Below, piece after piece: positions 2,577 to 26,866 of a stretch of 64,000 nt of DNA. Position 1 is the first letter of the stretch. Each line of letters opens with the position of its first letter. The DNA is from Roseateles sp. SL47 (lineage in GTDB: Bacteria > Pseudomonadota > Gammaproteobacteria > Burkholderiales > Burkholderiaceae_C). The notes beneath the pieces were generated by a model. The model saw only the letters and a program-made list of their open reading frames with translations, searched no databases and had not been told where the DNA came from. The DNA is taken from positions 4,402,001-4,466,000 of the forward strand of contig NZ_CP113068.1 of assembly GCF_026625885.1 (NCBI RefSeq), in the 5' to 3' direction. The position numbers were made by a program, and so were the translations under genes.

Positions 2577-2626
2577 GGAAGAGCCCCTGGTTGCAACGGC
2601 TGCCGTAGCGTCAGACAGGATTCAAG

Positions 2627-3862: not shown

Positions 3863-3864
3863 GC

Positions 3865-6816: not shown

Positions 6817-6835
6817 GCGGTCCCCCCGTGCAACC

Positions 6836-7636
6836 TCAGTCGGCCCGACGCCGCCCGAGCTGCAGCTTCGCCATCCAGCACGCCAGCACATAACCGGCCC
6901 CGCTCATCAGCAGCACAAGCGCGCCAAACACCAACCCGGATCCGGGCTCACCGCTGGCGGGTGCCACCAGCCGGGCCGCCCCCACCGCAGCCACCAGCAG
7001 ACTGAGCAGGGCCAACGACACGGTCATCACCTGGGAGGCCAAGGGCGCCAGCCGGTCTGCACGTCGGATAAGGCGCGCAATCCACAGGCCGCCCAAGGCG
7101 TCGGCAGCCAGCATGCCGCCGGCAAACAGCAGCGCCAGCGTGGCAGCCTGGAGGGGCCCGCCCGAGCGCCCGGCGGCCAACGCAAAGACGGCTGCCTGGC
7201 TGATGGTGTCAAAAGACAAGGCGAACAGCGCACCGACGGCGGCAACCGTCACCGGTCGTTTGGCATGGACCCATCGCCACCGCTGCAACGGCATGGCCGT
7301 TGCGTCATTCACCGGCCTCATCACGGCCGCCAGGTTGCCCACCCCCAGCAGTGTCAACAAGGCGATCGAACACAGGCTACCGCCGGCCTCCAGCCAATGC
7401 GGCACTTCCAGATGATGGCTGAGTCGGTTGGCCGCCACCGCCACCACCAGCACCACCGCGCCATGGCCGGCCGCAAACAAGGCGCCGCACCAGCGCGCAA
7501 AGCGCTGGCCACGTCGTGCGTTCAGCCGCGTCAGACCATCGATGGCCGCCAGGTGATCCGCATCCGCCCCGTGCTGCACACCCAGCAGCAAGGCAATCAG
7601 ACACAGCGTGAGCCCGTCGGCCGGCAGGTTGGACAT
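6836..7636 (-). CDS. Nickel/cobalt permease, NiCoT (HoxN/NixA/RcnA-like) family
   Basis: 266 residues, a hydrophobic multi-helix inner-membrane protein. The family signature H-x4-D-H is present as His22...Asp27-His28, in the context QHGADADHLAAID. This helix is the metal-selectivity filter of NiCoT permeases, and a second conserved block (F-D-T-I-S-Q) is also present. It is expected to take up Ni2+ or Co2+. The start at 7636 is chosen because a GGGAGA site lies 8 bp upstream; an ATG at 7657 and a longer open frame upstream would lack this. It is shorter than classical HoxN (about 350 residues). It lies 46 bp downstream of the TPR gene on the same strand and may be co-transcribed. Which metal it carries is unknown. 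Confidence 0.85.
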   Translation of the reverse strand: MSNLPADGLTLCLIALLLGVQHGADADHLAAIDGLTRLNARRGQRFARWCGALFAAGHGAVVLVVAVAANRLSHHLEVPHWLEAGGSLCSIALLTLLGVGNLAAVMRPVNDATAMPLQRWRWVHAKRPVTVAAVGALFALSFDTISQAAVFALAAGRSGGPLQAATLALLFAGGMLAADALGGLWIARLIRRADRLAPLASQVMTVSLALLSLLVAAVGAARLVAPASGEPGSGLVFGALVLLMSGAGYVLACWMAKLQLGRRRAD

Positions 7637-7682
7637 CAAGGCAATCTCCCTCGTCATGAAGGTGGGCGGCGGGCGGGGTGGT

Positions 7683-8882
7683 CTAGCGATGGACGTGAAA
7701 GCCACGCGCATGCGGATTGAGCCCACGTGCCTGCTGCGCCAGCCGCTGACCTGCCTCCGCCGCCCCCGCAGCCTGGAAGATCGCCGCAGCCCGTTCCAGC
7801 GTATGCGCATCCCGCTCACGTGAATCCAGGGCGCGCTGCATGGGCACCAGCGCTTCGCTGGCGCGGCCGGCCCGGTAGAGGGCCCAGGCCCAGGCGGCCA
7901 GCGTCGCCGGGTTCTCGCGCAGCGCCAGATCCGCACCGGCCCAGCGCAGCGCCTGCGTGCCGTCTTCCCGCACATCGGCATGGAAGTCGGCCAGGTGATG
8001 CAGGTAATGCACCTCCCCTTGTGCCACCGAACTCATGAAAGCATCCAGCGCCCGGCCGAACCAGCGCTCGGCCTCGGTGGCCCGACCCATGTGCGCACAC
8101 AGCTCGCCCATGGCCTGCTGCAACTCCGGGCGGTCCACTTCGGCCAGCACCTGCTCATACAAGGCATGGGCCGCCTCGCACTCATCCATTGCCGCCAGCA
8201 GCTCGGCCCGGTGTTCCGCCACCAGCCAATAACCGGTGTAGGCCCGGTTGGCACGGTCGTAGTGGTCCCGCGCGGCCGCCAAGCGACCGCGCTTCAGGTC
8301 CAGCACGCCCCGCTGCAGTTGCAGCCAGGCGTAATGCCGCATCTCCTTGGCGGTCAACTCGTCCTCCGCATCATCGAAATGGCGTTCGGCCGCGTCGTCC
8401 TCGCCGCACTTGAAGGCCAGATGCGCCAACCTCGCGTGGTTGTCCCAGGTGGGACTTTCGTCCAGCACACGCCGGTAGAGCCGCTCTGCCTCGTCATGTC
8501 GCCCCTGTTGCAAGTGCAGGTCGGCCCGCAGCGCCTGGCCCGGCATGCTGTCCCGCAGATCCGGACTGGCCTGCAGCGTGCGCATCACGCCGTCCAGACG
8601 GTGGAACTTGAAGTCGATGTTGGCCTTCAGGTAGCTGAGATCCGGGTCCGGCCGATCCGCGCTGATCAGGGCGGACAGTTGCCGGTCCACGAGGCTCAGT
8701 CCTGGATAGTCGCCGCGCAAGGAGGCCTGCTGGTAGCGCTTGTAGATCAAGCGGTGCAGGCGGCCGCGGTCGGCATCTGGTGCGTCCAGCGTGCTGATCT
8801 CGCTGGCCAGCCGGGCGAGTTCGGCCTGGTAGTCGGTCTGTCCGCCCCGGGGGCTTGGGGCTTGGATGCTGGAGGCGGTCAT
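7683..8882 (-). CDS. Tetratricopeptide repeat (TPR) protein
   Basis: 399 residues, cytoplasmic by appearance, with no signal peptide. From about residue 55 to the end it is built of degenerate 34-residue helix-turn-helix TPR units with the usual small and aromatic positions, for example Q-G-R-H-D-E-A-E-R-L-Y-R-R-V-L and M-G-R-A-T-E-A-E-R-W-F-G-R-A-L. TPR arrays bind protein partners; the partner is unknown. The gene lies 103 bp downstream of the DUF4331 gene on the same strand, and its co-location with the oxidoreductase/cytochrome genes suggests an accessory or assembly role. No clear ribosome binding site precedes the ATG at 8882, so the start is moderately certain. Confidence 0.8.
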   Translation of the reverse strand: MTASSIQAPSPRGGQTDYQAELARLASEISTLDAPDADRGRLHRLIYKRYQQASLRGDYPGLSLVDRQLSALISADRPDPDLSYLKANIDFKFHRLDGVMRTLQASPDLRDSMPGQALRADLHLQQGRHDEAERLYRRVLDESPTWDNHARLAHLAFKCGEDDAAERHFDDAEDELTAKEMRHYAWLQLQRGVLDLKRGRLAAARDHYDRANRAYTGYWLVAEHRAELLAAMDECEAAHALYEQVLAEVDRPELQQAMGELCAHMGRATEAERWFGRALDAFMSSVAQGEVHYLHHLADFHADVREDGTQALRWAGADLALRENPATLAAWAWALYRAGRASEALVPMQRALDSRERDAHTLERAAAIFQAAGAAEAGQRLAQQARGLNPHARGFHVHR

Positions 8883-8985
8883 GGCGGTGGTCGCAATCGT
8901 GGTGACAGGCGTGGTGGGAGGCGTCGTGACATGCAGGTTGGCCGGGGTGGCTGCCTGAAGGTCCGCACAGGTGGCAGTGCGGGCA

Positions 8986-10587
8986 TCAATACGACTCCGG
9001 CCACGGGGGCGCCAGATAGGGGAAGTCCGTCAGGAAGGGCTTGTCGTTGTGGAGCGGATTCGGCGAGGTCTTGGGTTGTACCGGTGCGGCCTGCCACAAG
9101 GCCGGGTCGCTCAGCAGCTCCAGGTGGTACTTGCGGCCGTTGAACTCCGCATCCATGTCCAGGAACATCGCCAGGAAGCGATTGGCCACCTGGTCCTCCA
9201 GACGCCGGCCAAACGGCCAGGTGCCGGTGGTGTCCATGTCAATGGCGCAGACGTTGGGGATGAAGATCTCCACCGGCCGGCGCAGCGGGATGTCCAGCCC
9301 TTTGGGATTCCAGCTGTCGTCGGGCATGCGCAGCCGCTGGAAGAGCAGTTTCCTGGCCCGAGGAAAGGCGGTCAGCACATGCTCATAGGTCTTGTGCACC
9401 GACACCGGCGAGTGATCATGGTCAAAGCAGGTGGCCAGACCCAGGGCGCTGATGGACGGGCCAAAGCCCCAACCGAGGTGGGCGGTGCGCCGGATGAAGG
9501 TCGGGGCCAGCCAGAAGTTGTTGGCGCCCAGTTGCCGGTTGTCTTCGCGCTCGCTGAAGCCGGCATCTGCAAACGGCTGACCATCCGTGTCCACCAGCTT
9601 GTAATGCTTGAGTTCGTCGTCCAGCCGGAACGCATCCAGCACGCTGCGGGGATGCTCCAGCCAGAAGGGGTGGTCCGGAATGGTCTCCACCTTGTTGGCA
9701 GCCTTGCGCACCCAGCTTTCTCCCCAGGTGTTGACGATGCGGTCCTTCTGCGGCTCCCGCGTCAGGAAAGCCAGCGGAATCTCCAGCGCGATGGTGTTGA
9801 TGTTCTTGCCGTTCTGACAGTCGTAGCCGGAGTAGACCAGCCGGTAGTCCCCGTTCTCGTCTTTGCGAAACCGGTCTCCCTTCCACTCATACGGGCCGGG
9901 GGGCAGGTCCCGCTTGGACCCATTGGGGCGGCCCTTGACATGCAGATAACCCCAATCCGGATCCTTGGGATCGGCATTAAAGAGATCATTGCCCTCCAGC
10001 TCCAGCAAGGTTTTGGGGATGGGCAGCTCGCGCAAATCGGGTCGGGTGTGTGGCACGTGATAGAACTGCGGCGCATAGTTGATGGAGCGAAAGAAGCCGG
10101 TCAGGTCATTAAAGAAGGCATCGTCGCGGCCACCGATGTAGGTCTTGATGGCATGGCCATCCGGCGTGTGGATGTCCAGCACCTGGTTGGTGTCCACAGT
10201 GGTCGAAAAATCCCCACCGGGAAAGCCGAAGAATCGCACTGTCGCCCGTTGTGCTTCGTCGACGGTCACGCGGATCTCGGCCGCACTGGAGGGGCCCAGA
10301 TAGCGCTCCTTCACGGCCTCGAAGTAATGGAGCAGGGTCTCCAGCGTCTGGTCGTCCCCATGCGGCCAGACCGCTCGCGGGGCCGGTGCGATCTGGATGC
10401 GGTAGAGCATGTCGGTATCCAGCGTGCCGGCCGTGGGGACTGCTGCGAAGGTCAACGCGATGTAGACCTTCTCTCCCCCGGTCTTGTCGTCGCTTGGAAA
10501 GCCGAACAGATCGTAGAGATCGGCCGCGCTGACATCGATGTCGGAAAAGATCGTGTTGACGGCATTCGGGTCGTTGTGGTCTGCCAT
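8986..10587 (-). CDS. DUF4331-like protein
   Basis: 533 residues. The opening Ala-Asp-His-Asn-Asp-Pro, then Ser-Ala-Ala-Asp-Leu-Tyr-Asp-Leu-Phe-Gly-Phe, resembles the start of DUF4331 proteins, which begin with a D-H-x-D and a D-(I/L)-x-D-x-(Y/F)-x-F pattern. Other DUF4331-like pieces are the N-T-I-A-L-E-I-P strand and the T-W-G-E-S-W block. Function is not known for the family. No obvious signal peptide. An AAGGAG site 8 bp upstream fixes the start at 10587. It lies 33 bp downstream of the GMC-patatin gene, so co-transcription is likely. The family call rests on recognisable motifs rather than on an alignment. Confidence 0.7.
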   Translation of the reverse strand: MADHNDPNAVNTIFSDIDVSAADLYDLFGFPSDDKTGGEKVYIALTFAAVPTAGTLDTDMLYRIQIAPAPRAVWPHGDDQTLETLLHYFEAVKERYLGPSSAAEIRVTVDEAQRATVRFFGFPGGDFSTTVDTNQVLDIHTPDGHAIKTYIGGRDDAFFNDLTGFFRSINYAPQFYHVPHTRPDLRELPIPKTLLELEGNDLFNADPKDPDWGYLHVKGRPNGSKRDLPPGPYEWKGDRFRKDENGDYRLVYSGYDCQNGKNINTIALEIPLAFLTREPQKDRIVNTWGESWVRKAANKVETIPDHPFWLEHPRSVLDAFRLDDELKHYKLVDTDGQPFADAGFSEREDNRQLGANNFWLAPTFIRRTAHLGWGFGPSISALGLATCFDHDHSPVSVHKTYEHVLTAFPRARKLLFQRLRMPDDSWNPKGLDIPLRRPVEIFIPNVCAIDMDTTGTWPFGRRLEDQVANRFLAMFLDMDAEFNGRKYHLELLSDPALWQAAPVQPKTSPNPLHNDKPFLTDFPYLAPPWPESY

Positions 10588-10620
10588 GAGCAGCTCTCCT
10601 TGCGGTGGGTCCGGGGCGTT

Positions 10621-13600
10621 TCAGCGGAGGAAGACCGACAGGCCCGCGTGCTGCCCCAGCATGCGGTACGCCTCCCACTGGTCATCGTCGAAGAACTGGT
10701 CGGCCGTGCTCTGCTGCGGAAAGACCGGGTGGGTCTGCGCGTAATAACGGACGTCGGTCGGGATGTCCGGGCACAGGCTGGGTTTGATCAACAGCAGCCA
10801 GCTGGGTTCGCTCGGTTGATGGTGATAAACGACCCGGGCCAGGGCCGCATAGTGCCCGCCCTCCCGCTTGAGCTGGGTCAGCGCGCCGATGGCGCCCAGG
10901 TCCACCTGACGGGCGATCCACGCCGGCACTTCGCTGTGCAGTTGGGCCGGCTCCAGCCATTCGATGGTGGCGTTGAAGTCCAGCCGCACCTGGCGTGTCA
11001 GCAGCGCCAGATCATCGAACTGATAGGCCTCGTCCTGCGAAGCGTCGACCGCCACCATGAAAGGCAGTCGTCGTCGAATCAGCTCGTAGAGACCGGTGTT
11101 GTCGAAATGTCCGCCGTCGCTCAGATACCAGAGCAGGCTGGAGGCGCCGGGAAACCACGCCCGCCATTCATCCAGCAGCGTGGCCTGCAGCCGGAAGGCC
11201 GCACCAGGCAGCGACTTGATGCGCCGCCACAGGCCGGGGGGGAAGCGCCCGGGGCGCTGATCCGCCGGGATGCCACTGTCCCACCAGTAGCCGATGCGGA
11301 TGTTGAGCAGCCCCAGCAGCAAAGACTTTGCCAGCGTGGTGCCCCGCCCCAGGCCGGTGGTGTAGGCCGCACCGGAAATGGCGGTCCACTGCCCGAGCTT
11401 GAGCCGCTCCACCTCCACCGCTTGGTCGTCCCGGCGGGCCAGCACATGGAATTGGTTGGGGTCTGGCGCCACCAGCACCGGTGCCACCCCCACACGATGC
11501 ATCGGCGTTTTGTGCTTGGCCGGATCGCGAGGGACCCAGAGCGCGTGATGCCGACGTCCGACACTCAGGCCGGCAGGACCGACACACAGCGACAAGCCCT
11601 TGTCGTCCCGCAACTGCCGGCCGGAGTTCCGGTCCACGGTGTCGTTCACGCAGGCGCCGATCAAGTGCAGGGGGCCTCCGTGGTCCTGCGGCCGGTAAAG
11701 GTCAAAGTCGATGTCATCACCCGGGTCCGAGATATTGATCGGGATTGGCGCGTCCACACCGGGGGGATGCACCCGCGCATCGTTGGACGCCCCCAGGAAG
11801 TTGCGCACCAGCTTTTGGGCGTATCCGGCCTGCAGCGAGGACAGATTCAGAAACGGAAAGATGCGTGCCACCGCCAGGGACGCCAGCAGCGTGCTGGCCA
11901 CCAGCCAGGGACCGACATGCGGCCAACGGAAGGCCCAATGCACCATCGCATCCAGATAAAACAGCAGCAGGAACAGCAGCCCGAAGGCGATGCCTGACAG
12001 CAGCAGCTGCTGCAGCAAGGGTCCGGACGGCAGCAGAGGCGCGGGCTTTCCGCTCAACACCTGCATGGCCATCGAGCGCAGCAATGCCAGCAGCGGCGGC
12101 AGGACCAGCATCGACCAGCCGGTCACGGTGAAGTCCCCCTCCCCGGCCGCCCGGGCCAGCGAGTCCAGCACCACCCAGAACACCGCCAGGGCAAAACCGA
12201 ACAACAGGCTGCCCAGCACCCGCGAGAGGCGGGTCCGGATGATGGTGCTCGGCGGGGTGGGCGGTGCGGACGTCTCGCTGCGCAGTGGTCCGCGCCGGGC
12301 ACGCTCAGGGTCGTCGTCGGGGATGCCCCAGCTGGCCATTTCCTGCGCGGTCCAGGCCAGCAACAGCACCACCAGAGCCAGCGCGCCCCAGGGCAGCAGC
12401 GACGGCACACCGAGCGCAAAGACAGCGCAAGCCAGCAGCGCCACCCACAGCCACAACGGCCGCAGCACATCACGCCCTTCGTGAGGATCCTTCAGGACGA
12501 ACCAATACCCTGACGCCGTCGGTACCACCCCCAGCAGCAACACCAGCACGGGCAAGGGCCACCAGGGTGACAGACCAATGCCCTGGAAGCGCCAGTCCGG
12601 GATCGAAGTCTCCGCCCACCCGTCGATCAGCCAACGTGCCAGCCCGAACAGGCCAAACACCAGGGCCCCGATCCACAGATGCACAAACGCGAGGTTGCGC
12701 AGCACGATGGCCAGATCGTTCTGGAGGTCGGTCCGGCTGCCGCTGTCGATGTAGTTCGCATGCTTGCGCAGCCACCACACCTCCGGTGATGACGGCGTCG
12801 CCAGGATGGAGGCTACCCGCCCGGCCTTGTCCTCCACACAGGCCTCCTGGCGCGTGAACAGGCGTCCCAGGAAGGCCCCTGTATAGCCGCCCCCGGACAC
12901 CGACGACACCATGTCGATCTGGCGCAGGCGGCCGCGCATGGCCAGCGCCTGCAAAACGCCCAGGCAGAAGGTGGCGCTGCGCACGCCGCCGCCTGACAGC
13001 GCAAGGCCCACCGTATCGGCAGGCAACTCGTCCTCGACCGGCGAGGACACGGGCGGCAGGCCTGCCGCTGCACGCCGCAGGCGGATCTCGCCGGCCTCCG
13101 CCGCCCGCAGCGCCCTCGGGTAATCCGGCGAGTCAGCCAACAGCACATCCGCCGCCTTCTCACCAATCATGTAGGTGGGGGTGACGATGAAATAGCCCGG
13201 GATGCGGGGGAACACCGAGGCATCCACCACCCGCAGGCCGGACACCCCGTGCACTCGGAAATCGCTGCTGAGCACGGCATCCGGCTCGGTCAGCGTGGCC
13301 GTGTCCGCCTGCCATCGGTCGGCGCCAATCCGGCAGGTGCCGCAGGCATGGTGCCCCCAGGCCTCGTCGCGGATCCACTGGTCCAGCGCCGGGCCAGCGG
13401 GCAGCCCCGGCTGGACCTCATTGCCGAACACGCTGATCTTCTGATTGATCTCCCGCATCCGTGTGATGGCCTCGGACAAGGCGTCGACGTCCTCGCGCGC
13501 ACCCTCTGCATGGGGGGCGTCGTCGCCTTCATCAAACGAGTGGAAGTCGATTTGGGGCACATCCAGCGGGTCCGCCGTGCGCAGGGTCACCGAACCATGG

Positions 13601-15297
13601 CGGTTGTGGGTGTAGGCCTTGAGGATGACCCAGCTCCACAGGTTGCGTTGCTCCTTGCCTGACCCCTTGTGGGCGTAGAGCACTTCTTTGGAGTAGCCCC
13701 AGTAGTAGCCCCGGAACGCGGCCGGCACGCCGAAGATGAACAGGTCCGGGTCCCGCCGCACGGCCTGGTTGGCCGTCGACGACATCATCAGCGCGAGTGC
13801 GCCGCCGTTGGTGGAATACAACCCAGAGCCATCTTTCAGCCACTGCTGCAGCGCCTGATCCCCCGGCGTGTCGGGTGTGAAGCTCACCCCTTTCAGCGTC
13901 GAGAAATCCCGGGTGGCTTCGCTGATGACGCTCACCTCGTAACGGTCCTGCATGTGCCGGCCCACACCCGGCAGATGCACGATGGGCGCCAGCACCTGCC
14001 CGTGACGGTCCCTGGGACCTTCGATCTTCAGCTTCTCCAAGGCCTGCCGGTCCCCGATGCCGCTCAGCATCAGCACCTGCGGCGAATTGAAGGCGCCGCC
14101 GCAGACAATCACCTCCTGCCTTGCAAACAGTTGCAGCCGCGTCGCCGTTCCCCCGGTGGCGCCGGCCAGCGGGCTGGCACGGTAGAGATGCGCCCCCTGA
14201 AGCAGTTCCACGCCGATGGCGCGTGGCGGGTCGGTGGCGCTCGCGCCGGGTGCGAACACCACCCGGGTGACATGCACGCCGGTTTCAATCACCAGATGTT
14301 CAGGCAGGTCCTTCTGGGTCTGGAGCAGATGCTCCCGCAGGCCAAAACGCCGGTGGCCATCCGTGCCGATCGAGATCAGCGACAGATGGGCCCTCGACGG
14401 CAGGTCCGGGGACCGGACGTTGGGGTCCAGAAACTGCAGCAATTGCAGGTGGGCCAGCGAGCGCAGAAAGGTGCCTCGCTCGTCCTTTCCCCCCAATGTG
14501 GAAAGCGCCACGTCCAGCAGCACCCGCAGGAAGGTGTTGTCGCCCTTGACGATGCTGGCAATCACCAGCGGGTCGATGAAGCTGGTCGGCAGCCAGCCCT
14601 TTTCTCCGTGGCCGCCAGGGTCCAGTTGCCGGCGCGGGTTGATGAAGGTGGCGACCTTGCGGGCCGCCGTCAGCACCGTGCCGAGGGTCTTGCGGCCAAA
14701 GGTGTTGTAGACGCCGTAGTAGAGGCACTTCTCGATCTTCGGGAAGTAGCCCTGCATGTGGTCCGACCGCCACGAGGGATCGTTGGTCCGGTTGGCGATC
14801 CAGTCCCAGTCCGCATCATTGGGCCGGATGATGATCATGGCGTAGTGCGCCGTGCAGCCGCCAATTGCGGCGGTGCGCGGGTACTGGATGCCCCCCTGGC
14901 CCAAGCCTCCCTGCCGTGAGGGGTCCTGGGTCGGTGTGTACTTGGTGTCCCGTTGCTGGCGGGCGTCGTTGTTGTAGTGGCGGACGGAAAAGGTCCAGCT
15001 CATCTGGGCATCTTCTGTCGCCGCGCCGTGGAAGGCCGGCACCACCGCCACCTGCCGCATGCCGCCGGAGGTGTTGTCGCCGGGTTGAATCGGCAGGGGC
15101 TTGCCATCGGGCCCCATGGAGGCGTCCACGCCGGCCTCCAGCACCAGCACCCGCCGCCCGCCCTTGGCCAGGCGGGCCGCGAGCGGGCCTCCACCCGCGC
15201 CGGAGCCAATGACGATGTAGTCGAAGGGCGTGGCCTGCGGGTCACGCGCCTGGGCCAGCAGCGTGGCGCGATCGGTTGGAGCTGTGGCGGCACTCAT
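10621..15297 (-). CDS. GMC oxidoreductase fused to a transmembrane patatin-like phospholipase
   Basis: 1558 residues in one uninterrupted frame. Residues 1 to about 730 are a GMC flavoprotein: FAD dinucleotide motif GSGAGGG at 31-37, a long substrate domain, and the C-terminal active-site block with His649-His650 before A-C-G-T-C-R-I-G, then V-V-D-A-S-V-F-P. From about 760 a patatin domain begins: SGGG oxyanion loop at 768-771, nucleophile Ser801 in S-V-S-G-G-G (the usual first Gly of G-x-S-x-G is Ser), and catalytic Asp1394 in S-D-G-G-H. Between nucleophile and Asp sit several hydrophobic segments (roughly 870-1180) that look membrane-spanning. GMC enzymes oxidise alcohols or aldehydes; patatins release fatty acids. 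The start is 1 bp after the stop of the cytochrome gene. No signal peptide. Confidence 0.9.
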   Translation of the reverse strand: MSAATAPTDRATLLAQARDPQATPFDYIVIGSGAGGGPLAARLAKGGRRVLVLEAGVDASMGPDGKPLPIQPGDNTSGGMRQVAVVPAFHGAATEDAQMSWTFSVRHYNNDARQQRDTKYTPTQDPSRQGGLGQGGIQYPRTAAIGGCTAHYAMIIIRPNDADWDWIANRTNDPSWRSDHMQGYFPKIEKCLYYGVYNTFGRKTLGTVLTAARKVATFINPRRQLDPGGHGEKGWLPTSFIDPLVIASIVKGDNTFLRVLLDVALSTLGGKDERGTFLRSLAHLQLLQFLDPNVRSPDLPSRAHLSLISIGTDGHRRFGLREHLLQTQKDLPEHLVIETGVHVTRVVFAPGASATDPPRAIGVELLQGAHLYRASPLAGATGGTATRLQLFARQEVIVCGGAFNSPQVLMLSGIGDRQALEKLKIEGPRDRHGQVLAPIVHLPGVGRHMQDRYEVSVISEATRDFSTLKGVSFTPDTPGDQALQQWLKDGSGLYSTNGGALALMMSSTANQAVRRDPDLFIFGVPAAFRGYYWGYSKEVLYAHKGSGKEQRNLWSWVILKAYTHNRHGSVTLRTADPLDVPQIDFHSFDEGDDAPHAEGAREDVDALSEAITRMREINQKISVFGNEVQPGLPAGPALDQWIRDEAWGHHACGTCRIGADRWQADTATLTEPDAVLSSDFRVHGVSGLRVVDASVFPRIPGYFIVTPTYMIGEKAADVLLADSPDYPRALRAAEAGEIRLRRAAAGLPPVSSPVEDELPADTVGLALSGGGVRSATFCLGVLQALAMRGRLRQIDMVSSVSGGGYTGAFLGRLFTRQEACVEDKAGRVASILATPSSPEVWWLRKHANYIDSGSRTDLQNDLAIVLRNLAFVHLWIGALVFGLFGLARWLIDGWAETSIPDWRFQGIGLSPWWPLPVLVLLLGVVPTASGYWFVLKDPHEGRDVLRPLWLWVALLACAVFALGVPSLLPWGALALVVLLLAWTAQEMASWGIPDDDPERARRGPLRSETSAPPTPPSTIIRTRLSRVLGSLLFGFALAVFWVVLDSLARAAGEGDFTVTGWSMLVLPPLLALLRSMAMQVLSGKPAPLLPSGPLLQQLLLSGIAFGLLFLLLFYLDAMVHWAFRWPHVGPWLVASTLLASLAVARIFPFLNLSSLQAGYAQKLVRNFLGASNDARVHPPGVDAPIPINISDPGDDIDFDLYRPQDHGGPLHLIGACVNDTVDRNSGRQLRDDKGLSLCVGPAGLSVGRRHHALWVPRDPAKHKTPMHRVGVAPVLVAPDPNQFHVLARRDDQAVEVERLKLGQWTAISGAAYTTGLGRGTTLAKSLLLGLLNIRIGYWWDSGIPADQRPGRFPPGLWRRIKSLPGAAFRLQATLLDEWRAWFPGASSLLWYLSDGGHFDNTGLYELIRRRLPFMVAVDASQDEAYQFDDLALLTRQVRLDFNATIEWLEPAQLHSEVPAWIARQVDLGAIGALTQLKREGGHYAALARVVYHHQPSEPSWLLLIKPSLCPDIPTDVRYYAQTHPVFPQQSTADQFFDDDQWEAYRMLGQHAGLSVFLR

Positions 15298-15298
15298 G

Positions 15299-18200
15299 TC
15301 ACAGCGTCTCCAGGAAGGCCTTCAACTGGCGCTTCTCATCATCGCTGAGACTCTGCGCGAACCAGTGGCCACGGTCCAGAACCAGGTCGGGGCACTTGCT
15401 CGCCCGGAGCAAGGGCTTGCCGGCTTCGCTCAGGAAAGCCTCCAGCGCCTCGCCCCGGTCGTCGGACAGCCCTTCCACCTGCACACGCAGCATCCCGCGC
15501 ACCAGCCCGGACACAGCATGGAACAGATCCAGCGCAGGCGCCTCCGGATTGATGTTCATCAGCAGGTTGACCGGTGTCCCCATCGGAATCGGCCCAAGCC
15601 GAATGTCCGTCAAGCGGCCGTCCACAAAGGCGCTGGCGACATTGCCAATACCCAGGAACACCAAGGCGCTGAGGGCAAACACGATCCGCGCCGCTGTATG
15701 GGCATGTTGCCGGACCAGGAACCACACCCCAGCGGCCAAGGCCACCAGCGGAATCACCCACAGCCAGGGCAGGATGGTGTCGATACCCGTCGCCCGCAGC
15801 AGGGCCGCCGTCAAGGCTGCAAACACCGTGAGCGCGAAACCTGCGAGCTTGGCCCTTCCCACCAACACCAGCACGATGGCCAGGAGTGCTGCCAGCCACC
15901 ACAGCCATCCGGACAGGAAGGCCGTGAGGCCCTTGCCCGCCACCCCTTCAATCAGCGGACGGATGAAGGGGGCACGGAAGTCGATCCAGGAGCGCTCGGT
16001 GGTCCGGTAGATGAAACCCGGCTCATGCGCCAGCGCGGGAAGGCGCTTGCGCAGGTCGCCGGGCCGGCCGCTGCCGACGGCCCGCCGTTCCGGCCAGAGC
16101 AGCTTGTCGACGGCATCGTCGAAGGCGGCGAGCCGCCCTTTGACCGACGGATCCCCGTTGTAGAGCCCCAGTGCGTTGTTGTGGAGCAGCGGCGCGCTGG
16201 TCCAGAGGCTCACCAGCGAAGCGGGTCGGTAATAACCAGGGCCGCCGGCGGGTGGCGCGTAGCTGTCATTGTTGCCCCAGCGGTCCACCCCCTTCTCCGA
16301 CACGAGCAACGGGTTGTAGAAACGCAGCTCGCCCACGGCGGGCAGCGCCTTGTACGTCTCGGAGGAGAAGTTGTCCCATACCTGCCCCTTCATGCCGTTG
16401 GTGGCGACCGAGCGGCCGGAATTGGTGCCCACCAGCGTGATGGGCACGCGGATGTCGTTGGAGAGATAGTTGTCCTTCAGGAAGTCCAAGCCCTTCGACT
16501 GCTCGGCGGAGACGTACGCCTCCAGGCGCTTCACATAGGCCTGGTAGGCCGGGCTGGCCTGGAAGTCATCCCATTCGGCGTAGTCCATCGGCAAGGTCAA
16601 TACGGCGGCCGGATCACTCATGGCCGACCGGCGCCAGTCCCTTGAAAAGCGCCACTGCTGCTGGTCCGGCTGCTTGCTGGAATGGCAGACTGCACAGTGC
16701 TGGAGGAAGACTTGCCGCCCTGGCGCCACCGCAGCCGTATGGACGGCCAGCCGCGCCTGCCCGTCCGCCGTTGCGGCCAGTTTCATGGCCTGGGTGGAGG
16801 TCACGCCCGTCGGCGAGACATAGGTGAAAAACGACTCCAGCTGCGGGATGCGAAACGCCTCGGTGGCCTGCCAGTAGACCGACTTGTCCTGGATGGTGGC
16901 CAGCTCGAAGGGCCGCTGGGGCTTGAAGCCGATCACCGGGTTGTGCAGGTGGCGCCACTGCTCGGAATAGGCGCCGATGTTGAGATACACCCGAGACAAC
17001 GCGCCCTCCACCCCGATGCTGTCTGCGCCGTCCAGCAGCACGCGGGGTGTATGGCGCGGGTTGGTGAGGACATTGGGCGCGTCCTCGATGCCGCGTTGCC
17101 GCAGGTTGGAGGCGCTCTGCAACTCCGGTGGATTCAGCTTGGCCCGGCCCAGACGCGGGTTCAACTCGAATATCGCGGTGATGGTGTTGGCGTTGTTGAT
17201 GTGGTCGGTGCTGACCAGTGACGTGTCAATCGTGCCCGGCTGCTGGCTGGCCACGAACTGCCAGAGGAAGCTGCTGGGCGTCTTGAGGTTGGAGAAGGCT
17301 TTGTCCGGTGTCCAGTACTGGGAGCCGATGGTGCTGGACATGTTGGCCCAACCCGGATTCGCCGGGTCGGCGGGCGGGTTCAGCGGATGCGGCCCCACAT
17401 GGCAGAAGGCGCAGGCCATGCTGATGCGGAACGGGCGCACCAGCTTGGGATCGGCCCGGATGCGGTCGTCGGTGTAGTAGGCGTCCTGGGTCGGGCTCTT
17501 CAGCACCCGTTCGTTCCAGTAGGCACGGGCCTGTTCCGCCGCCTTGGAATCTCCGAAGAAATCGGGGTTGAGCATCAGCCGCAGCCCGACCACGCCGGAC
17601 GGGTAACCGTAGACCAGCGGGTCGATGCCGTCATTGGGCATCTGCTTGATGGTCTCGTCATAAAGCTTCTGGTCGCCGATGCGGAAGAACTCGGTGTAGG
17701 CCGCGCCCTTGTGACTGGCCGGCGGCTTGACCACTTCCGCCAGCTTGCCGGTCTTTGCGTCGATGTCGGTGGCCGGCTGCTGCAGCTTGATCTTGTCGCC
17801 GTCGGGCTGGTCCAGATAGAGCCCGAGGACCCGTCGGGCGGGGTCGGTCTGCGCGCGCATGCCGGGCTGGTTGATCAGGCCGGCTTCCTTGAAACGGGCC
17901 GCGCGCTGGCGGGAGTCGATCAGGATGAGAAAGTCCGCAATGCCATAGCCGTTCTCCTGCAGCCAGCCCCAGAACGCATCATTGCCCTCGCCCCACAGCA
18001 TCCAGGTGTTCTGGCCGCGGATGGCCTGGCGCGCCGCGTCGGGCACTGCCTGGCCGTCGAAATAATCAATCGGCCGCAGCTTGCCATCCGGCCCCACCAC
18101 CTGGTCCACCTCGCTGAACAGGTTGCGCATCTCGGTGGGAAAGCACATCTTGATGCGGTGGTAGAGCGTGGACCCGTTGGGGCTGCGGCTGCCACTTGCG

Positions 18201-18559
18201 GCCTCGTCACCGGGGGCTGCGGCCTCGATGCGGTCGGACAGCTTCTCCCACCCGGGCTGGGAGCGCGGCGTGAGGCCAGCGGCCGGATAACGCGCCCGGA
18301 GTTCTTCCAGTGACGGGTGGGCGCTGCGTCCGTCAGGGGCGGAGGCCGATCCGTGGGCGGGCGCGCTCGCGGCGGAAGGCGCCGCCTTGGGCACAGGTGC
18401 GGTCGTGGAAGCCGGGGCCGGTCCGGGCCAGCTTGTCAACGCTGCAAGCGCGGCCATCAGCGCGCCAGTGGCCAGCACTGCGCCCGCGCGACGGGTCACT
18501 CGAAAACGCATCAATCGTGCCACCCGGGTCTGCCAGGCCGCGACCATTCCAACCAGCAT
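15299..18559 (-). CDS. Di-heme c-type cytochrome, peroxidase/RoxA-like, with C-terminal membrane domain
   Basis: 1086 residues. An N-terminal hydrophobic segment (about residues 25-45) exports the protein, and an Ala/Pro/Ser-rich linker follows. Two covalent heme sites are visible: C-A-F-C-H starting at Cys383 and C-A-V-C-H starting at Cys622. Two widely spaced CxxCH motifs in a large protein resemble the di-heme peroxidase superfamily that includes rubber oxygenase RoxA and the Pseudomonas fatty-acid dioxygenases. After about residue 900 come three or four transmembrane helices and a soluble tail, which those proteins lack. The start at 18559 has a GGAGG site 7 bp upstream; the open frame extends to 18763 but overlaps the regulator gene. 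It is coupled to the GMC-patatin gene, a possible electron donor. Confidence 0.85.
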   Translation of the reverse strand: MLVGMVAAWQTRVARLMRFRVTRRAGAVLATGALMAALAALTSWPGPAPASTTAPVPKAAPSAASAPAHGSASAPDGRSAHPSLEELRARYPAAGLTPRSQPGWEKLSDRIEAAAPGDEAASGSRSPNGSTLYHRIKMCFPTEMRNLFSEVDQVVGPDGKLRPIDYFDGQAVPDAARQAIRGQNTWMLWGEGNDAFWGWLQENGYGIADFLILIDSRQRAARFKEAGLINQPGMRAQTDPARRVLGLYLDQPDGDKIKLQQPATDIDAKTGKLAEVVKPPASHKGAAYTEFFRIGDQKLYDETIKQMPNDGIDPLVYGYPSGVVGLRLMLNPDFFGDSKAAEQARAYWNERVLKSPTQDAYYTDDRIRADPKLVRPFRISMACAFCHVGPHPLNPPADPANPGWANMSSTIGSQYWTPDKAFSNLKTPSSFLWQFVASQQPGTIDTSLVSTDHINNANTITAIFELNPRLGRAKLNPPELQSASNLRQRGIEDAPNVLTNPRHTPRVLLDGADSIGVEGALSRVYLNIGAYSEQWRHLHNPVIGFKPQRPFELATIQDKSVYWQATEAFRIPQLESFFTYVSPTGVTSTQAMKLAATADGQARLAVHTAAVAPGRQVFLQHCAVCHSSKQPDQQQWRFSRDWRRSAMSDPAAVLTLPMDYAEWDDFQASPAYQAYVKRLEAYVSAEQSKGLDFLKDNYLSNDIRVPITLVGTNSGRSVATNGMKGQVWDNFSSETYKALPAVGELRFYNPLLVSEKGVDRWGNNDSYAPPAGGPGYYRPASLVSLWTSAPLLHNNALGLYNGDPSVKGRLAAFDDAVDKLLWPERRAVGSGRPGDLRKRLPALAHEPGFIYRTTERSWIDFRAPFIRPLIEGVAGKGLTAFLSGWLWWLAALLAIVLVLVGRAKLAGFALTVFAALTAALLRATGIDTILPWLWVIPLVALAAGVWFLVRQHAHTAARIVFALSALVFLGIGNVASAFVDGRLTDIRLGPIPMGTPVNLLMNINPEAPALDLFHAVSGLVRGMLRVQVEGLSDDRGEALEAFLSEAGKPLLRASKCPDLVLDRGHWFAQSLSDDEKRQLKAFLETL

Positions 18560-18702
18560 GGTGCATCCTCCGTGGACCCGAGATTGCCGCGCAGCATCCG
18601 GCCTTGGGGGACCGTGTGGATTGAAGCTTGGCCGACGTGACGTTGAATGCCCAGAATTGCAGGAGTCCCCGCACTGCGCTTCCGCAGATTGGAGGATGCG
18701 CT

Positions 18703-21126
18703 TCAATCCGGTGACACGGGAAAACCCGGAAGGTCTGGGGGCCGCCGATGCGGGTCTCGGCATCCCTGCAGCCAGACCTTGACCTCTTCCATCGACATCT
18801 GAAAGCCCGTTGCCTTGCCGGCGGCTTCCTCCTGACCAAACGCCATGGCTCCCAGTTGCCGGCGGGCATTGGCCATCAGCGGGGCGAGGAAGTCCTCATC
18901 CACCCGCTCCCGCCGGATGCCGGATTCCTCCAGCCGGGCTTGTGCCGCGCCAACGAACCGGGCTGCGGTGCCCGCCTCCCCCCGACAGGCCGCCAGGCCC
19001 GCGCTGCATTCCAGCAGGTCTTTGGCCATGGCCTTCATGCCGGCCGACTCCCACAGCGCCACGCCCTCCAGCAGCCATGCAGCGGCACTGTCCAGACGCG
19101 CGGTCGAAATGGACAGGCGCACCAGATTGCACAGCGACACAAAGGTGCCACCGGCGTAGCCCAACTGCCGCGTGATGTCGACGGCCTCTTCATAACAGGC
19201 CTGGGCGGCCTCCACATGGCCCAGCCCGCGATGGATCTCGCCGAGATTGTTCAGCGCCGCGCTCAGCCGGGTGGTCATGCCCAGCGCGCGTGCGGCTTCG
19301 CAGCTCTCGGCGGCACACGGCAGCGCCAGATGGTCCTGCCCGAGGGCATGCAGGCCTTTGGTCCGCAACATCAGGGCGGCAGCCACTTCTCCGGCATCGC
19401 CCAGGTCTCGGGCCATGGCCAGGCTGCGGGACGCGGCCTCCAGGCTCTCGTCGTAGCGACCCATGCGGAAAGCAATCGTGCCCACCGCCCCCAGGGCGCG
19501 GCAATGCTGCAGGGGCGCAGCGGACGCCCCCGCGTGCGCCAAGGCATCCGTGGCAAAACGGTAACCGCGCTCCAGTTGGGCTGAATTGAGCCAGTAGCGG
19601 GACAACTGCGCCGCCAAGGTGAGCGCTTCGCCGCCACCACGCTCTGCCTGCTGCAGGCAAGCGAGTTGCGCCGCCACGATGTTCTCCTGCTCTCGACGCA
19701 GCCGGGCCATCCATTCGCCCTGCGCCGGACCTTGCAGCGCTGGGGCGGCCTGCTCCACCAGGCCCATCACCCACCACAGGTGGTTCTGCCGTGCCAGCGG
19801 CCCTTCCCCGCTTTCTTCCAAGCGCGCCTGCGCAAATTCCCGAACCGTCTCCAGCATGCCGTAACGGGTCTCGGGCGGTCGACGGTCCACCACCAGCAGG
19901 GACTTGTCATTGAGGCTCACCAGCAGCTCCAGTGCAGCCATGGCGTCATGCAAGCCGCACACGGCGGCGGCGGAGGCCAGCGTCCAGCCACCGGCAAAGA
20001 CGGACAGGCCGCAAAAGGCACGCTGCTCGGTGTCCGTCAGATTGGCATAACTCCACTGAAGGGCTGCCTCCAGCGTCTGGTGGCGGGACGGGGCGCGGCC
20101 CGTGGCGGTGAGAAACCGGAAGCGGTCGCCCAGCCCCGCCTCGATCTCGGACACGGACAGAACACCCGCACGTGCGGCGGCCAACTCGATGGCCAGCGGC
20201 AGGCCTTCCAGCCGGTGGCACAGCGCGCCGACCGCCGGCAGCTGTGACGCCGGCAGGTCCAGATCGGGACACGCCAGCACGGCTCGGCTCAGGAACAGTT
20301 GTACCGCCTCGGATGCCGAAAGCGCGTCCGCCGCCGCGCTGGCCGGCAGCGTCAGCGCTTGGACGGGAAAGACCTGCTCGCCGTCGACATGCAGCACCAC
20401 CCGGCTGGTCGCCAGCAGCGTCAGGCCCGGGCAGCGGGTCAGCAGGCCGTCACCCAGCGCCGCGACCGCCGCCAGAACATGCTCACAGTTGTCCAGCACC
20501 ATCAGGACCCGCCGGTGGCCCAGATGTGCCGCCACTCGGTCTACGGTGGGCACGCCGGGGTCTTCCCGCACGTCCAGCGCCACCGCGACGGCAGGCACCA
20601 CGCCCAGGCCGTCGGCCACCGGTGCCAGGTCCACAAACCAGGTGCCGCCAGGGTAGTGCTCCGCCTGCTGATGCGCCAATTCCAGCGCCAGGCGTGTCTT
20701 GCCGCAGCCACCGATGCCGGTGAGCGTCAGCAGCCGGTTCCGCCTCAACAGATCAGCGCAACGGGCCAGGGCGGCCACACGACCAATAAAGGGTGTCCGA
20801 GGCTCGGGAAGAGGCGGCCCATCCGCCTGCGGCGTATGCAGCCGGGCGGTGAAGCGGTATCCCCGGCCCGGAATCGTGGCAATGACCTGGGGCCCGAGCA
20901 GCTTGCGCAGCGTCGAAATCTGCACCTGCACATTGGCTTCCTCCACCACCACGCCCGGCCAGACCAGGTTCAACAAGGCCTCCTTGGTCACCAATTGCCC
21001 GGCCCGCTCCACCAGCGCCAACAGCACGTCGAACGCGCGGGACCCTAAGGGCACGGGCACCCCACCGATCAGCAACTGGCGCAATTCAGGGTTCAGCTCG
21101 CAGGCATCAAAGACGAAGCCGGACAT
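18703..21126 (-). CDS. Transcriptional regulator: OmpR-type winged helix plus NB-ARC-like ATPase and TPR-like tail
   Basis: 807 residues. Residues 1-97 form a Trans_Reg_C winged helix (R-A-F-D-V-L-L-A-L-V-E, then I-P-G-R-G-Y-R-F at 85-92). A P-loop ATPase follows: Walker A G-I-G-G-C-G-K-T at 137-144, Walker B-like V-L-M-V-L-D-N-C-E. The C-terminal half is alpha-helical with TPR-like units. This architecture is a large ATP-dependent activator of the SARP/LuxR-like STAND kind, without a LuxR domain. It probably senses a ligand through the C-terminal repeats. The start at 21126 has a GGAG site about 7 bp upstream; an ATG 18 codons earlier is less likely. It lies 143 bp upstream of the cytochrome gene on the same strand, so it is the best candidate regulator of that operon. 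Confidence 0.87.
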   Translation of the reverse strand: MSGFVFDACELNPELRQLLIGGVPVPLGSRAFDVLLALVERAGQLVTKEALLNLVWPGVVVEEANVQVQISTLRKLLGPQVIATIPGRGYRFTARLHTPQADGPPLPEPRTPFIGRVAALARCADLLRRNRLLTLTGIGGCGKTRLALELAHQQAEHYPGGTWFVDLAPVADGLGVVPAVAVALDVREDPGVPTVDRVAAHLGHRRVLMVLDNCEHVLAAVAALGDGLLTRCPGLTLLATSRVVLHVDGEQVFPVQALTLPASAAADALSASEAVQLFLSRAVLACPDLDLPASQLPAVGALCHRLEGLPLAIELAAARAGVLSVSEIEAGLGDRFRFLTATGRAPSRHQTLEAALQWSYANLTDTEQRAFCGLSVFAGGWTLASAAAVCGLHDAMAALELLVSLNDKSLLVVDRRPPETRYGMLETVREFAQARLEESGEGPLARQNHLWWVMGLVEQAAPALQGPAQGEWMARLRREQENIVAAQLACLQQAERGGGEALTLAAQLSRYWLNSAQLERGYRFATDALAHAGASAAPLQHCRALGAVGTIAFRMGRYDESLEAASRSLAMARDLGDAGEVAAALMLRTKGLHALGQDHLALPCAAESCEAARALGMTTRLSAALNNLGEIHRGLGHVEAAQACYEEAVDITRQLGYAGGTFVSLCNLVRLSISTARLDSAAAWLLEGVALWESAGMKAMAKDLLECSAGLAACRGEAGTAARFVGAAQARLEESGIRRERVDEDFLAPLMANARRQLGAMAFGQEEAAGKATGFQMSMEEVKVWLQGCRDPHRRPPDLPGFPVSPD

Positions 21127-21361
21127 CGGCGCCTCCAGGGTCGCGTCTGACGGACACGGTACGACATCGAACTTCCGCACCCGCCGGCCGCCTTGCCTTG
21201 CAGGTTTTTGAATTCTTTGGACCGCTTAAGGACGGCGGCGGGGGCCGTGTGGAACATTGAACTCACGCCCCGACCGCCAAGGCCAACACGACCTCAGCGT
21301 CGAGACGCGGAGAGCTAAGCACGCTCTTGTTGATCACGCCATCCCACGAAAGAGGTTTGCC

Positions 21362-21829
21362 ATGACATTCACCGCCCATGCATCCACCACGTCCGATCTG
21401 GCCCTGGCCCACAAGGCCGGACCGCTTCACGGCCAGTTGCTGACGGCGCTCCAGCCTTGGATTGACGGCAGCACGAAGGACCGCCAGCAACTGCTGGACA
21501 GCGCGCTGATCAAGCTGCGGGACAGCGGCCAGATTGACCATGCCGAGTACCGGACCATCCGGCAGATCTTTGAACTGCTGGGTGCGCCCGACACCACCAC
21601 GCCGGTCCTGATTGACCGCCTGACGACCGAGCAGCACAACGCCGAGCGCCGGTCCGCCAGCGCGATGATGCATCTGTTCCTGAGCATTGGTCAGGACAGT
21701 GCGTCCCGTTCGGCCGTGCCGATTGCGGCGGCCGACCTGTCGGGGGGCATCTTCGGCGGTGTGGTGGGGGGGCCGTTGGGCGCGCTGGCGGGCGCAGCGG
21801 CCTTGTCACTCTTCACCGCGCAGAAGTGA
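21362..21829 (+). CDS. Small hypothetical protein with glycine-zipper C-terminus
   Basis: 155 residues, no recognised family. The first about 115 residues are soluble and helical (leucine and charged residues). The C-terminus changes abruptly to a Gly/Ala-rich hydrophobic segment with G-G-x-x-G-G-x-x-G-G-P-x-G-A-x-A-G-A spacing, which is a glycine zipper able to pack in or insert into a membrane. The start is set by an AGAGG box 7 bp before the ATG at 21362; upstream in-frame codons have no such site. It is divergent from the regulator gene, and the 235 bp between them hold both promoters. A hairpin follows its stop codon. Could be a self-associating or pore-forming peptide; that is inference only. 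Confidence 0.7.
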   Translation: MTFTAHASTTSDLALAHKAGPLHGQLLTALQPWIDGSTKDRQQLLDSALIKLRDSGQIDHAEYRTIRQIFELLGAPDTTTPVLIDRLTTEQHNAERRSASAMMHLFLSIGQDSASRSAVPIAAADLSGGIFGGVVGGPLGALAGAAALSLFTAQK

Positions 21830-21848
21830 GCGCCTGGGCACAGGCGCT
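21829..21848 (+). terminator. Hairpin after the small glycine-zipper gene, possible terminator
   Basis: A perfect 8-bp stem (AGCGCCTG / CAGGCGCT) with a 4-base loop starts at the last base of the stop codon. It has no T-run after it, so it could be a Rho-assisted or weak terminator, or shield the 3' end between two convergent genes. Confidence 0.4.
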
Positions 21849-21918
21849 GCGCTTGCGTTGACCCTGTGCCCCACTTCAGCGCCGCCGCTCGGCAGGCGCT
21901 GATGGCGCCTCGTCTACC

Positions 21919-23244
21919 TCAAGACGCCGCAGCCGCCAGCGCCTGATCGAGATCAGCCACCAGGTCATCGATGTGCTCGATGCCGACCGACAGCCGAATC
22001 GTGTCTTCCGAGACCCCGGCCTTGTCCAGTTCAGTGGGCGAGAGTTGCCGGTGTGTGGTCGAGGCGGGATGCGTGGCCAGCGAACGGACGTCGCCGATAT
22101 TGACCAGGCGGGTGAACAACTGCAGGGCATCCAGGAAGCGTGCGCCGCGCTCGCGCCCTTCCCCCTGCGGGCCTTTCAGGCCGAACGTGACAATGCCGGA
22201 CGCCTTGCCCGACAGGTACTTGCGGACCAGCCCATGGTCGGGATGGTCCTCCAAGCCTGCATAGTTGACCCAGCTCACCTGCGCATGGCGCTGCAGATGC
22301 CGGGCCAGCGCCAGCGCGTTGTCACTGATGCGATCCAGACGCAACGCCAGGGTCTCGATCCCCTGCAGAATCAGGAAGGCGTTGAACGGTGACAACGCCG
22401 CACCGGTGTTTCTCAGCGGCACCACGCGCGCCCGACCGATGTAGGCAGCAGGGCCAAGCGCCTCGGTGTAGACCACCCCGTGATAGCTGGGGTCCGGCTC
22501 ATTCAGCCGCTTGAAGCGTTCCTTGTGCTGCGCCCAGGGAAAGCGGCCGGAATCCACGATGGCCCCGCCGATGCTGGTGCCATGGCCGCCCAGATACTTG
22601 GTGAGGGAATGCACCACGATGTCCGCGCCATGTTCGATGGGCCGGCTCAGGTAGGGGGACGGCACGGTGTTGTCCACAATCAGCGGCACGCCATGCGCAT
22701 GCGCAATCTGGGCAATACGCTCGATGTCGGTGACATTGCCCTGCGGATTGCCCAGCGATTCCACAAAGATGGCCTTGGTGTGCTCGTCAATGAGCGCCCC
22801 GAACGATTCGGGCTGCCGGTAATCCGCAAAGCGCGCCTTCACGCCATATTGCGGCAGCGTGTGGGCGAGCAGGTTGTAGGTCCCGCCGTACAAGGCGCTG
22901 GAAGCGACGATGTTGTCCCCGGCCTCGGTGATGGTCAGGATGGCATAGGTCACCGCCGCCTGCCCGGACGCCACGGCCAGCGCGCCAATGCCGCCTTCCA
23001 ATGCCGCGAGCCGTTTCTCCAGCACGTCATTGGTGGGGTTCATGATGCGGCTGTAGATGTTGCCCGGCACCTTCAGATCGAACAGATCGGCGCCATGCTG
23101 GGCGCTGTCAAAGGCGTACGCCACCGTCTGGTAGATGGGCACGGCCACGGCTTTGGTCGTGGGGTCGGGGGAATAACCACCGTGGATGGAGAGGGTTTCG
23201 AAACGCCAGGAGGACACTGGCGTGGACGAGTCGGGCTGGGACAT
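21919..23244 (-). CDS. metY: O-acetylhomoserine (thiol)-lyase / Cys-Met metabolism PLP enzyme
   Basis: 441 residues, the normal length for the family. It belongs to the Cys/Met-metabolism PLP-dependent enzymes of gamma-family fold type I: the substrate-entry motif Y-Q-T-V-A-Y at the N-terminus, Y-S-R-I-M-N-P-T, the S-G-Q-A-A loop, V-D-N-T-V-P-S-P-Y, and the PLP-lysine in [10 protein letters not shown]. It makes homocysteine (or methionine) directly from O-acetylhomoserine and sulfide (or methanethiol). The ATG at 23244 begins the conserved protein; the frame is open further upstream but that part is repeat-rich and not conserved-looking. It is a single gene, divergent from the CPBP protease gene. 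A sulfhydrylase with other acyl-homoserine substrates cannot be excluded. Confidence 0.9.
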
Positions 23245-26547: not shown

Positions 26548-26668
26548 CATTCCTTCCACCTGCGTCCCCGCAGGCGTGTCGGTGCTGATGCTGAGAAATG
26601 AGCGCGACCCGGGCTGCGCATGGGGCGCGCAGCCTCGACGGCGCGCCGCACCCCGCAGCATCCGGAGC

Positions 26669-26866
26669 AGTCGCAGGCCGGTATCCGGGCTCGCGGCTTG
26701 AGTCCGTTGCACCCAGGCAATCAGACCCTGCGCCCTGACCTTCCCAGGCCGTGAGGCCCAGTGGCTACCGGTGATGGACACCGATCTGAGGACGCTTTCA
26801 ACCGCCGACCGTTGCGGGGGCAGCACAGGCATTGCACTACAGCGTGCGCACCTGTTTCCCGTTTAA
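26669..26866 (-). promoter_or_regulatory. Cobalamin (AdoCbl) riboswitch
   Basis: Read on the minus strand, the segment shows the ordered conserved blocks of the class: AAACGGGAA with GGTGC at the 5' end, CTGCCCCCGCAACGGT, GCCACTGGG, CTGGGAAGGTCAGGGC, and finally the B12 box GAGCCCGGATACCGGCCTG at about 26674-26692. It lies about 120 bp upstream of the TonB receptor start, on the same strand, and should repress that gene when cobalamin is plentiful. The core is nearly canonical; in the B12 box ATA replaces the usual AGA. Confidence 0.93.

Follow-up and report, generated by a model that had tools for sequence, protein, structure and literature searches.

The window analysed here is a 64,000-nucleotide stretch of Roseateles sp. 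SL47, taken from a genome assembled as a single contig of 6.39 Mb, and our subject is a run of minus-strand genes within it that encodes a membrane-anchored di-heme cytochrome and a GMC oxidoreductase–patatin fusion. An initial annotation had read five closely packed open reading frames (ORFs) as a lipid-oxidation module, and both their coordinates and their successive gaps of 143, 1, 33 and 103 nt proved correct. These minus-strand ORFs encode a winged-helix/NTPase/TPR regulator (18703–21126), the cytochrome of 1086 amino acids (15299–18559), the GMC–patatin fusion of 1558 amino acids (10621–15297), a DUF4331 protein of 533 amino acids (8986–10587) and a TPR protein of 399 amino acids (7683–8882). 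The run extends to a sixth gene on the same strand, for a NicO-family membrane protein (6836–7657; it continues the run in Roseateles sp. YR242 too), whose ATG lies 25 nt past the TPR stop. The cytochrome start was set at 18559, the beginning of the database copy P0006 (1086 amino acids) on which its residues are numbered, and a simple sigma-70 scan of positions 6500–22000 gave no promoter-like site. Judged by comparison with other genomes, the conserved core of this run is two genes, the approximately 1086-residue membrane di-heme cytochrome and the GMC–patatin fusion.

The cytochrome carries two CxxCH motifs 239 residues apart, CAFCH at residues 383–387 (17399–17413, minus strand, as for all features of the two core genes) and CAVCH at residues 622–626 (16682–16696). 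The two Cys and the His of each motif are invariant in 44 aligned sequences, and the spacing is 221–252 in ten close or GMC-linked relatives; for RoxA/FadCcp-type di-heme peroxidases a distance of about 200–245 residues is expected. Hydropathy predicts one hydrophobic segment at the N-terminus and four transmembrane helices (residues 877–981; 15617–15931) that interrupt the sequence ahead of the C-terminal tail and are also helices in the structure model. His1065 (15365–15367), which aligns with RoxA His641 in the C-terminal heme region, is invariant in the 44 cytochromes, with a match to residues 638–662 of RoxA (4b2n) that reaches only E 0.019; RoxA residue numbers, H641 included, follow PMC4496055. 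By hand alignment, Leu509 precedes a shared D-G and stands at the position of the RoxA inter-heme Trp302, and Arg523, invariant in alignments of both 44 and 54 sequences, falls by RoxA Ala316/Phe317.

The initial annotation had placed this protein with RoxA and the Pseudomonas oleate dioxygenases. Our comparisons support this kinship at a remote level only. Our Pfam scan of the window cytochrome returned no family above cut-off, and its NF040606 score of 25.3 bits (36.3 and 37.7 in two relatives) does not reach the curated cut-off of 150. PF21419 (RoxA-like_Cyt-c) matches 32 of the 44 family members at E ≤ 0.01, with a best value of 2.8e-6, and leaves the window protein unmatched. The profile of the window family matches that of RoxA-like Rhizobium cytochromes with 97.2% probability (E 4.2e-11, 125 columns), and the Rhizobium profile in turn matches RoxA 4b2n at E 1.7e-19. 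Sequence searches of the cytochrome against the PDB gave short cytochrome c matches at most, structure comparison of the whole protein was dominated by the transmembrane helices, and Foldseek with the heme domain returned nothing informative. We regard the cytochrome as only a remote relative of RoxA and do not file it in the RoxA/FadCcp-type family. The two-heme layout is shared with RoxA, and the C-terminal GH motif aligns directly while the APxxHN-motif region aligns by way of the Rhizobium cytochromes; RoxA differs in being a secreted, soluble protein rather than a membrane-anchored one, and by hand alignment its Trp302 is not conserved in the window cytochrome. Similarities also exist to P. 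aeruginosa PA2077/PA2078 (FadCcp), a periplasmic type with proposed fatty-acid oxygenation, in that the two CxxCH hemes are spaced by about 240 residues (239 in the window protein, 245 and 235 in those two) and that the hand alignment puts a basic residue, Arg523, near a predicted PA2077 Lys (PMC4496055). In contrast to PA2077/PA2078, the window cytochrome is about 1.7 times larger, has the four-helix insertion, a GMC partner and Leu at the inter-heme Trp position, and falls below the NF040606 cut-off.

The second core gene joins two enzymes in one ORF. GMC_oxred_N (50.6 bits, cut-off 23) and GMC_oxred_C (79.5 bits, cut-off 24.6) mark a GMC flavoprotein domain at residues 1–735 (13093–15297), and Patatin (30.9 bits, cut-off 27.7) marks a patatin domain at residues 750–1558 (10624–13050), in which a count by eye gives about eight hydrophobic segments between Ser801 and Asp1394. 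Among the best 120 GMC–patatins, the patatin GGGxR oxyanion loop and Asp1394 are present in all 120 and Ser801 in at least 118. The GMC catalytic motif consists of a His with a His or Asn partner; in the same 120 proteins His650 is invariant, and the partner position, placed by alignment to alcohol oxidase 8rpf, is Phe703 in 119. GMC proteins encoded apart from a patatin, including that of Calothrix, agree on these residues, G100 excepted, for which the alignment failed. Hydropathy finds no hydrophobic segment in the GMC domain, nor any before residue 862. Pairing of a GMC flavoprotein with a multi-heme cytochrome recalls the gluconate- and fructose-type GMC dehydrogenases, whose complexes with cytochrome c subunits face the periplasm via Tat export; unlike them, the window GMC has no hydrophobic segment at its N-terminus and continues into a transmembrane patatin. 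A 1008-residue plus-strand frame (8971–11997) lies antisense to the DUF4331 and GMC–patatin genes, which we take as a by-product of high G+C coding and not as a gene.

The two core genes stay together well beyond the genus. Database searches, in which scoring was limited to some 8000 candidates with the most words in common, gave 358 matches to the cytochrome and 589 to the GMC–patatin; among the best 120 of each, named sources include Paraburkholderia, Rhizobium, Mesorhizobium, Sinorhizobium and Pseudomonas. The size of the longest contig is equal for 38 of 119 cytochrome clusters and the 120 listed GMC–patatins, and the corresponding controls gave 1 for GMC against DUF4331 (YR242) and 3 for cytochrome against DUF4331. 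A tie of DUF4331 to the pair in other genomes was considered and set aside, as the two equal sizes outside YR242 (5947 and 9321) may be chance. In a sample of 398 genomes of the phylum, with the two best GMC candidates per genome scored, the GMC subfamily was found at E ≤ 1e-60 in SL47 itself and in G101, G376 and G424, and the same four genomes hold the cytochrome at E < 1e-50, with the pair adjacent in all; a fifth genome (G270) has a distant cytochrome alone, without such a GMC near by. The class sample (185 genomes) gave, apart from SL47 itself, close cytochromes in G043, G101 and G100, adjoined by the GMC in G101 and G100 and followed by the end of the contig in G043, together with distant cytochromes in G053, G127, G040 and G146 and three marginal matches. 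In the order sample (399 genomes; the three samples overlap) the GMC occurs in SL47, G759, G861 and weakly in G727, and the cytochrome lies next to it in two of these three further genomes, G727 being the exception. On plasmids, all 21 records with a cytochrome match have a GMC match within 500 bases, many of them being near-identical Rhizobium strains; a 22nd record with a close GMC, from Calothrix, is without such a cytochrome. Roseateles sp. YR242 keeps the order cytochrome, GMC–patatin, DUF4331 and TPR at 81–94% identity, followed by NicO, and a 16-kb Crenobacter stretch holds only the cytochrome and GMC–patatin from the window run. The neighbourhood comparison suggested by the initial annotation bears out the pair, but neither a dedicated regulator nor DUF4331 and TPR as parts of the core. 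The cytochrome–GMC–patatin pair is real, conserved and apparently undescribed: neither the pair nor the GMC–patatin–P450 fusion discussed below was found described in titles and abstract openings of the open-licence literature among the matches listed, an outcome that argues only weakly for their being undescribed.

Five loci (L015–L018 and L022) represent a more divergent branch of the cytochrome family, and none of them holds a GMC of the window subfamily. At four of the five, the next gene encodes a protein of about 570 amino acids with a sub-cut-off cytochrome c match. Because of this different next gene and the missing GMC, the branch probably has another function.

The usual company of the pair is a lipase-type hydrolase. 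Thirteen cytochrome–GMC loci have enough flanking sequence (the window, L002, L003, L006, L007, L009, L010, L013, L020, L021, L028, L029 and L030), and at 11 of them a lipase-type hydrolase is fused or lies within about three genes, L021 and L028 lacking one; not all of the 13 are independent, because R. johnstonii, S. fredii and Sinorhizobium B11 are closely related. The patatin is fused in the window, L002, L003, L006 and L010 and separate at L007, L009, L013 and L030, with Lipase_3 also at L030, and an alpha/beta hydrolase is found at L020 and L013 (above the DUF900 cut-off) and at L029 (below all Pfam cut-offs). Outside this count are L012 and L014 (contig ends), L019 (the L002 locus), L031, L008 and L011 (no cytochrome), the distant cytochromes and the peroxidase loci L023–L027. 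Three separate, adjoining genes encode the cytochrome, GMC and patatin on Rhizobium johnstonii pRL11 and in Sinorhizobium fredii, and ahead of them lie two more RoxA-like cytochromes and an NADH:flavin oxidoreductase. Among the sampled genomes, G861 has a row of cytochrome, GMC, patatin (27.2 bits, cut-off 27.7), class 3 lipase and RoxA-like cytochrome. Divergent from the pair, G101 encodes a patatin and an alpha/beta hydrolase. An alpha/beta hydrolase is also present in G376, together with a DUF4331-like protein, and in G759, where it scores below Pfam cut-offs, and G424 has a DyP-type peroxidase.

Some relatives of the fusion are longer still. Fifteen of the best 120 GMC–patatins, of which three were rescanned, carry an added C-terminal P450 with the heme Cys in 15/15 and an ExxR motif in 15/15 (EQLR in 14, EQMR in one). 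Conventional P450s have a Thr in helix I; at that position all 15 tails have Ala, by hand alignment to the motif. Self-sufficient P450s that act on hydroperoxides work without an electron chain, some of them with a nonpolar residue near the iron, according to PMC13049297. The possibility that the P450 replaces the cytochrome is not favoured, since 5 of the 15 P450-fused GMC–patatins match a cytochrome cluster by equal contig size.

Haem peroxidases form a further, looser group of companions. The Calothrix plasmid carries GMC and patatin genes with an animal-type haem peroxidase (An_peroxidase, E 1.9e-118) about 2.5 kb upstream, and a plasmid search with this peroxidase gave 27 records, of which five besides Calothrix were opened. 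Two of the five, on plasmids of rhizobial or marine type, hold a cytochrome like the RoxA-related Rhizobium ones. The neighbours of the peroxidase are a RoxA-related cytochrome and an annotated alpha/beta hydrolase in Qingshengfaniella, a patatin of the window type in Phyllobacterium, and a P450 with an annotated alpha/beta hydrolase in Streptomyces, while the unannotated Nonomuraea locus gave no further match. Also among the five, an R. phaseoli plasmid (L023:6921–9749) encodes a fusion of a catalase and an animal-type haem peroxidase, followed by an R. johnstonii-like RoxA-related cytochrome; the fusion looks like a rhizobial oxylipin enzyme. Cyanobacterial members of this peroxidase superfamily, such as the Nostoc enzyme, are described in PMC9579011 as linoleate dioxygenases acting with catalase-related enzymes. 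The peroxidase-locus companions lend indirect, supporting evidence for lipid chemistry.

Because lipase-type hydrolases, patatin among them, usually accompany the pair, as does a P450 in some relatives, we favour lipid oxidation: with roughly even confidence, the two-gene core may be a membrane-bound lipid-oxidation module, perhaps of oxylipin type. To this extent the lipid-processing idea of the initial annotation is strengthened. Two observations at the peroxidase loci weaken the support that these loci give, namely that a transposase gene separates the Calothrix peroxidase from the GMC and patatin genes and that none of the five other peroxidase loci has a GMC of the window type (0/5). In the mechanism we propose, the patatin domain would free acyl chains from membrane or imported lipids, and the periplasmic di-heme cytochrome would oxygenate an unsaturated lipid or convert a lipid hydroperoxide, much like the P. 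aeruginosa oleate dioxygenase and diol synthase. The hydroxylipid so formed could then be oxidised by the GMC domain, probably at the cytosolic face. In relatives, the fused P450, with Ala at the helix-I Thr position, may rearrange the hydroperoxide without a reductase.

Topology bears on the direction of electron flow. Since c-type hemes are periplasmic, those of the window cytochrome should be as well, and the predicted segments place the GMC and patatin probably in the cytosol. Direct electron flow from flavin to heme, as had been proposed at first, is therefore doubtful and in our view unlikely, because the GMC is without a hydrophobic segment and so probably cytosolic while the hemes are periplasmic. 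The electrons of the GMC would instead leave to quinone or O2, not directly to the heme protein, and the cytochrome and GMC–patatin may meet in the membrane and exchange lipid rather than electrons. Such a scheme resembles the cyanobacterial linoleate 10S-dioxygenase with its catalase-related lyase and the fungal dioxygenase–P450 fusions, in which a heme dioxygenase is joined by a P450 or catalase-like hydroperoxide enzyme (PMC13049297, PMC9579011). It differs from them in that the conserved heme protein here is a c-type di-heme cytochrome and that lipase and flavin oxidase are fused.

An alternative that is unlikely, though one to be taken seriously, is that the pair degrades an exogenous hydrophobic polymer or an isoprenoid or sterol ester for carbon in the manner of RoxA, with the patatin as esterase and the GMC as alcohol dehydrogenase. 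The remote RoxA kinship of the cytochrome would fit, as would the plant-associated bacteria among the named relatives, the genes for an acyl-CoA dehydrogenase near L029 and for an aldehyde dehydrogenase at L031 (where the GMC has no cytochrome beside it) and, within the window, a TonB receptor in the vicinity of the pair. However, four predicted transmembrane segments in the cytochrome and about eight in the patatin do not suit a secreted polymer oxygenase, and NF040606 scores of 25–38 bits are far from the cut-off of 150. The TonB-dependent receptor gene (minus strand) is divergent from a gene for a second, weakly patatin-like protein (plus strand; 22.1 bits against the Patatin cut-off of 27.7), the two occupying 24349–28958, about 3–8 kb beyond the regulator.

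It seems rather improbable that the pair instead detoxifies or repairs peroxidised membrane lipids, the patatin excising oxidised acyl chains and the di-heme peroxidase reducing hydroperoxides. The di-heme peroxidase-type motifs, the invariant Arg523, which hand alignment puts close to the presumed distal pocket, and the DyP-type peroxidase behind the pair at L021 are consistent with such a role, but the GMC oxidase has no obvious part in it, and the sporadic spread of the pair (4/398 genomes) and of the DUF4331 marker (2/16 genus members) suits an accessory pathway better.

That the whole packed run constitutes a single obligatory pathway with a dedicated regulator, as the initial annotation had it, is quite improbable. 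In its favour are the short gaps here and the YR242 arrangement of cytochrome, GMC–patatin, DUF4331, TPR and NicO (NicO with 72% and 55% identity in two pieces), but the Crenobacter stretch shows the pair alone, and the other members behave differently from the core. The regulator, which adjoins the core without being conserved with it, has Trans_reg_C and TPR matches above the Pfam cut-off and an NTPase part below it (AAA_22 25.7 bits, cut-off 27). No relative of it was found at any other locus examined and three substantial paralogues of 34–40% identity exist in its own genome, so that we reject the idea that it is dedicated to the pair. Phage defence was likewise dismissed, the sole PADLOC match being a generic TPR model in the regulator. 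The DUF4331 gene (PF14224, 47.4 bits, cut-off 27) and the TPR gene (Pfam, repeats above cut-off) are additions that occur in this arrangement only in the window and YR242; DUF4331 relatives near the pair in L006 and L020 are remote and sub-cut-off (24.6 and 26.3 bits against 27), and such a DUF4331 is found in 2 of 16 genus genomes, SL47 included. Nine of the ten close DUF4331 homologues listed with a taxon come from Acidobacteriota groups, at 72–79% identity. For proteins from such distant groups this identity is exceptionally high and hints at horizontal transfer, and close relatives listed mostly from elsewhere do not speak for a module part. We found no paper on DUF4331 in the open-licence literature. 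The five-gene obligatory module was therefore put aside for the two-gene core, and the DUF4331, TPR, NicO and regulator genes look like local accessories.

Beyond the NicO gene the minus strand (25–5712) carries HupE/UreJ, YHYH, GoxB-like and LodA/GoxA-like cysteine tryptophylquinone (CTQ) oxidase genes. The LodA/GoxA-type oxidase (3865–5712), with its partner GoxB-like flavoprotein (2627–3862), is a possible associate of the pair and is also found on the pair's plasmid stretch in Mesorhizobium onobrychidis (L006), where HupE, GoxA and GoxB relatives likewise lie near the cytochrome–GMC pair. Although these GoxA and GoxB relatives occur near the pair in both organisms and, among the matches listed for the heme-domain model, 5/5 are MauG complexes, it is very improbable that the cytochrome serves to mature the neighbouring CTQ oxidase in the manner of MauG and is not a lipid enzyme.

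Returning to lipid oxidation by the two-gene core, we tentatively raise a broader and less probable possibility, that these proteins belong to a new class of bacterial oxylipin machinery tethered to the membrane. One polypeptide of 1500–2000 residues would combine the lipase with the flavin oxidase and, in some lineages, with a hydroperoxide P450 that needs no reductase, and would be paired with a periplasmic di-heme oxygenase whose role cyclooxygenase-like haem peroxidases may share or take. The bacterial oxylipin enzymes of the papers surveyed, namely oleate dioxygenases, mini-lipoxygenases and cyanobacterial dioxygenases, are described singly. If this interpretation is correct, a cassette coupling lipid release, oxygenation and flavin oxidation would provide a defined route by which bacteria form oxidised lipids, perhaps at plant roots. 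Named relatives of the cassette occur in rhizobia, Paraburkholderia and Roseateles, and its multi-domain enzymes may be of synthetic use.

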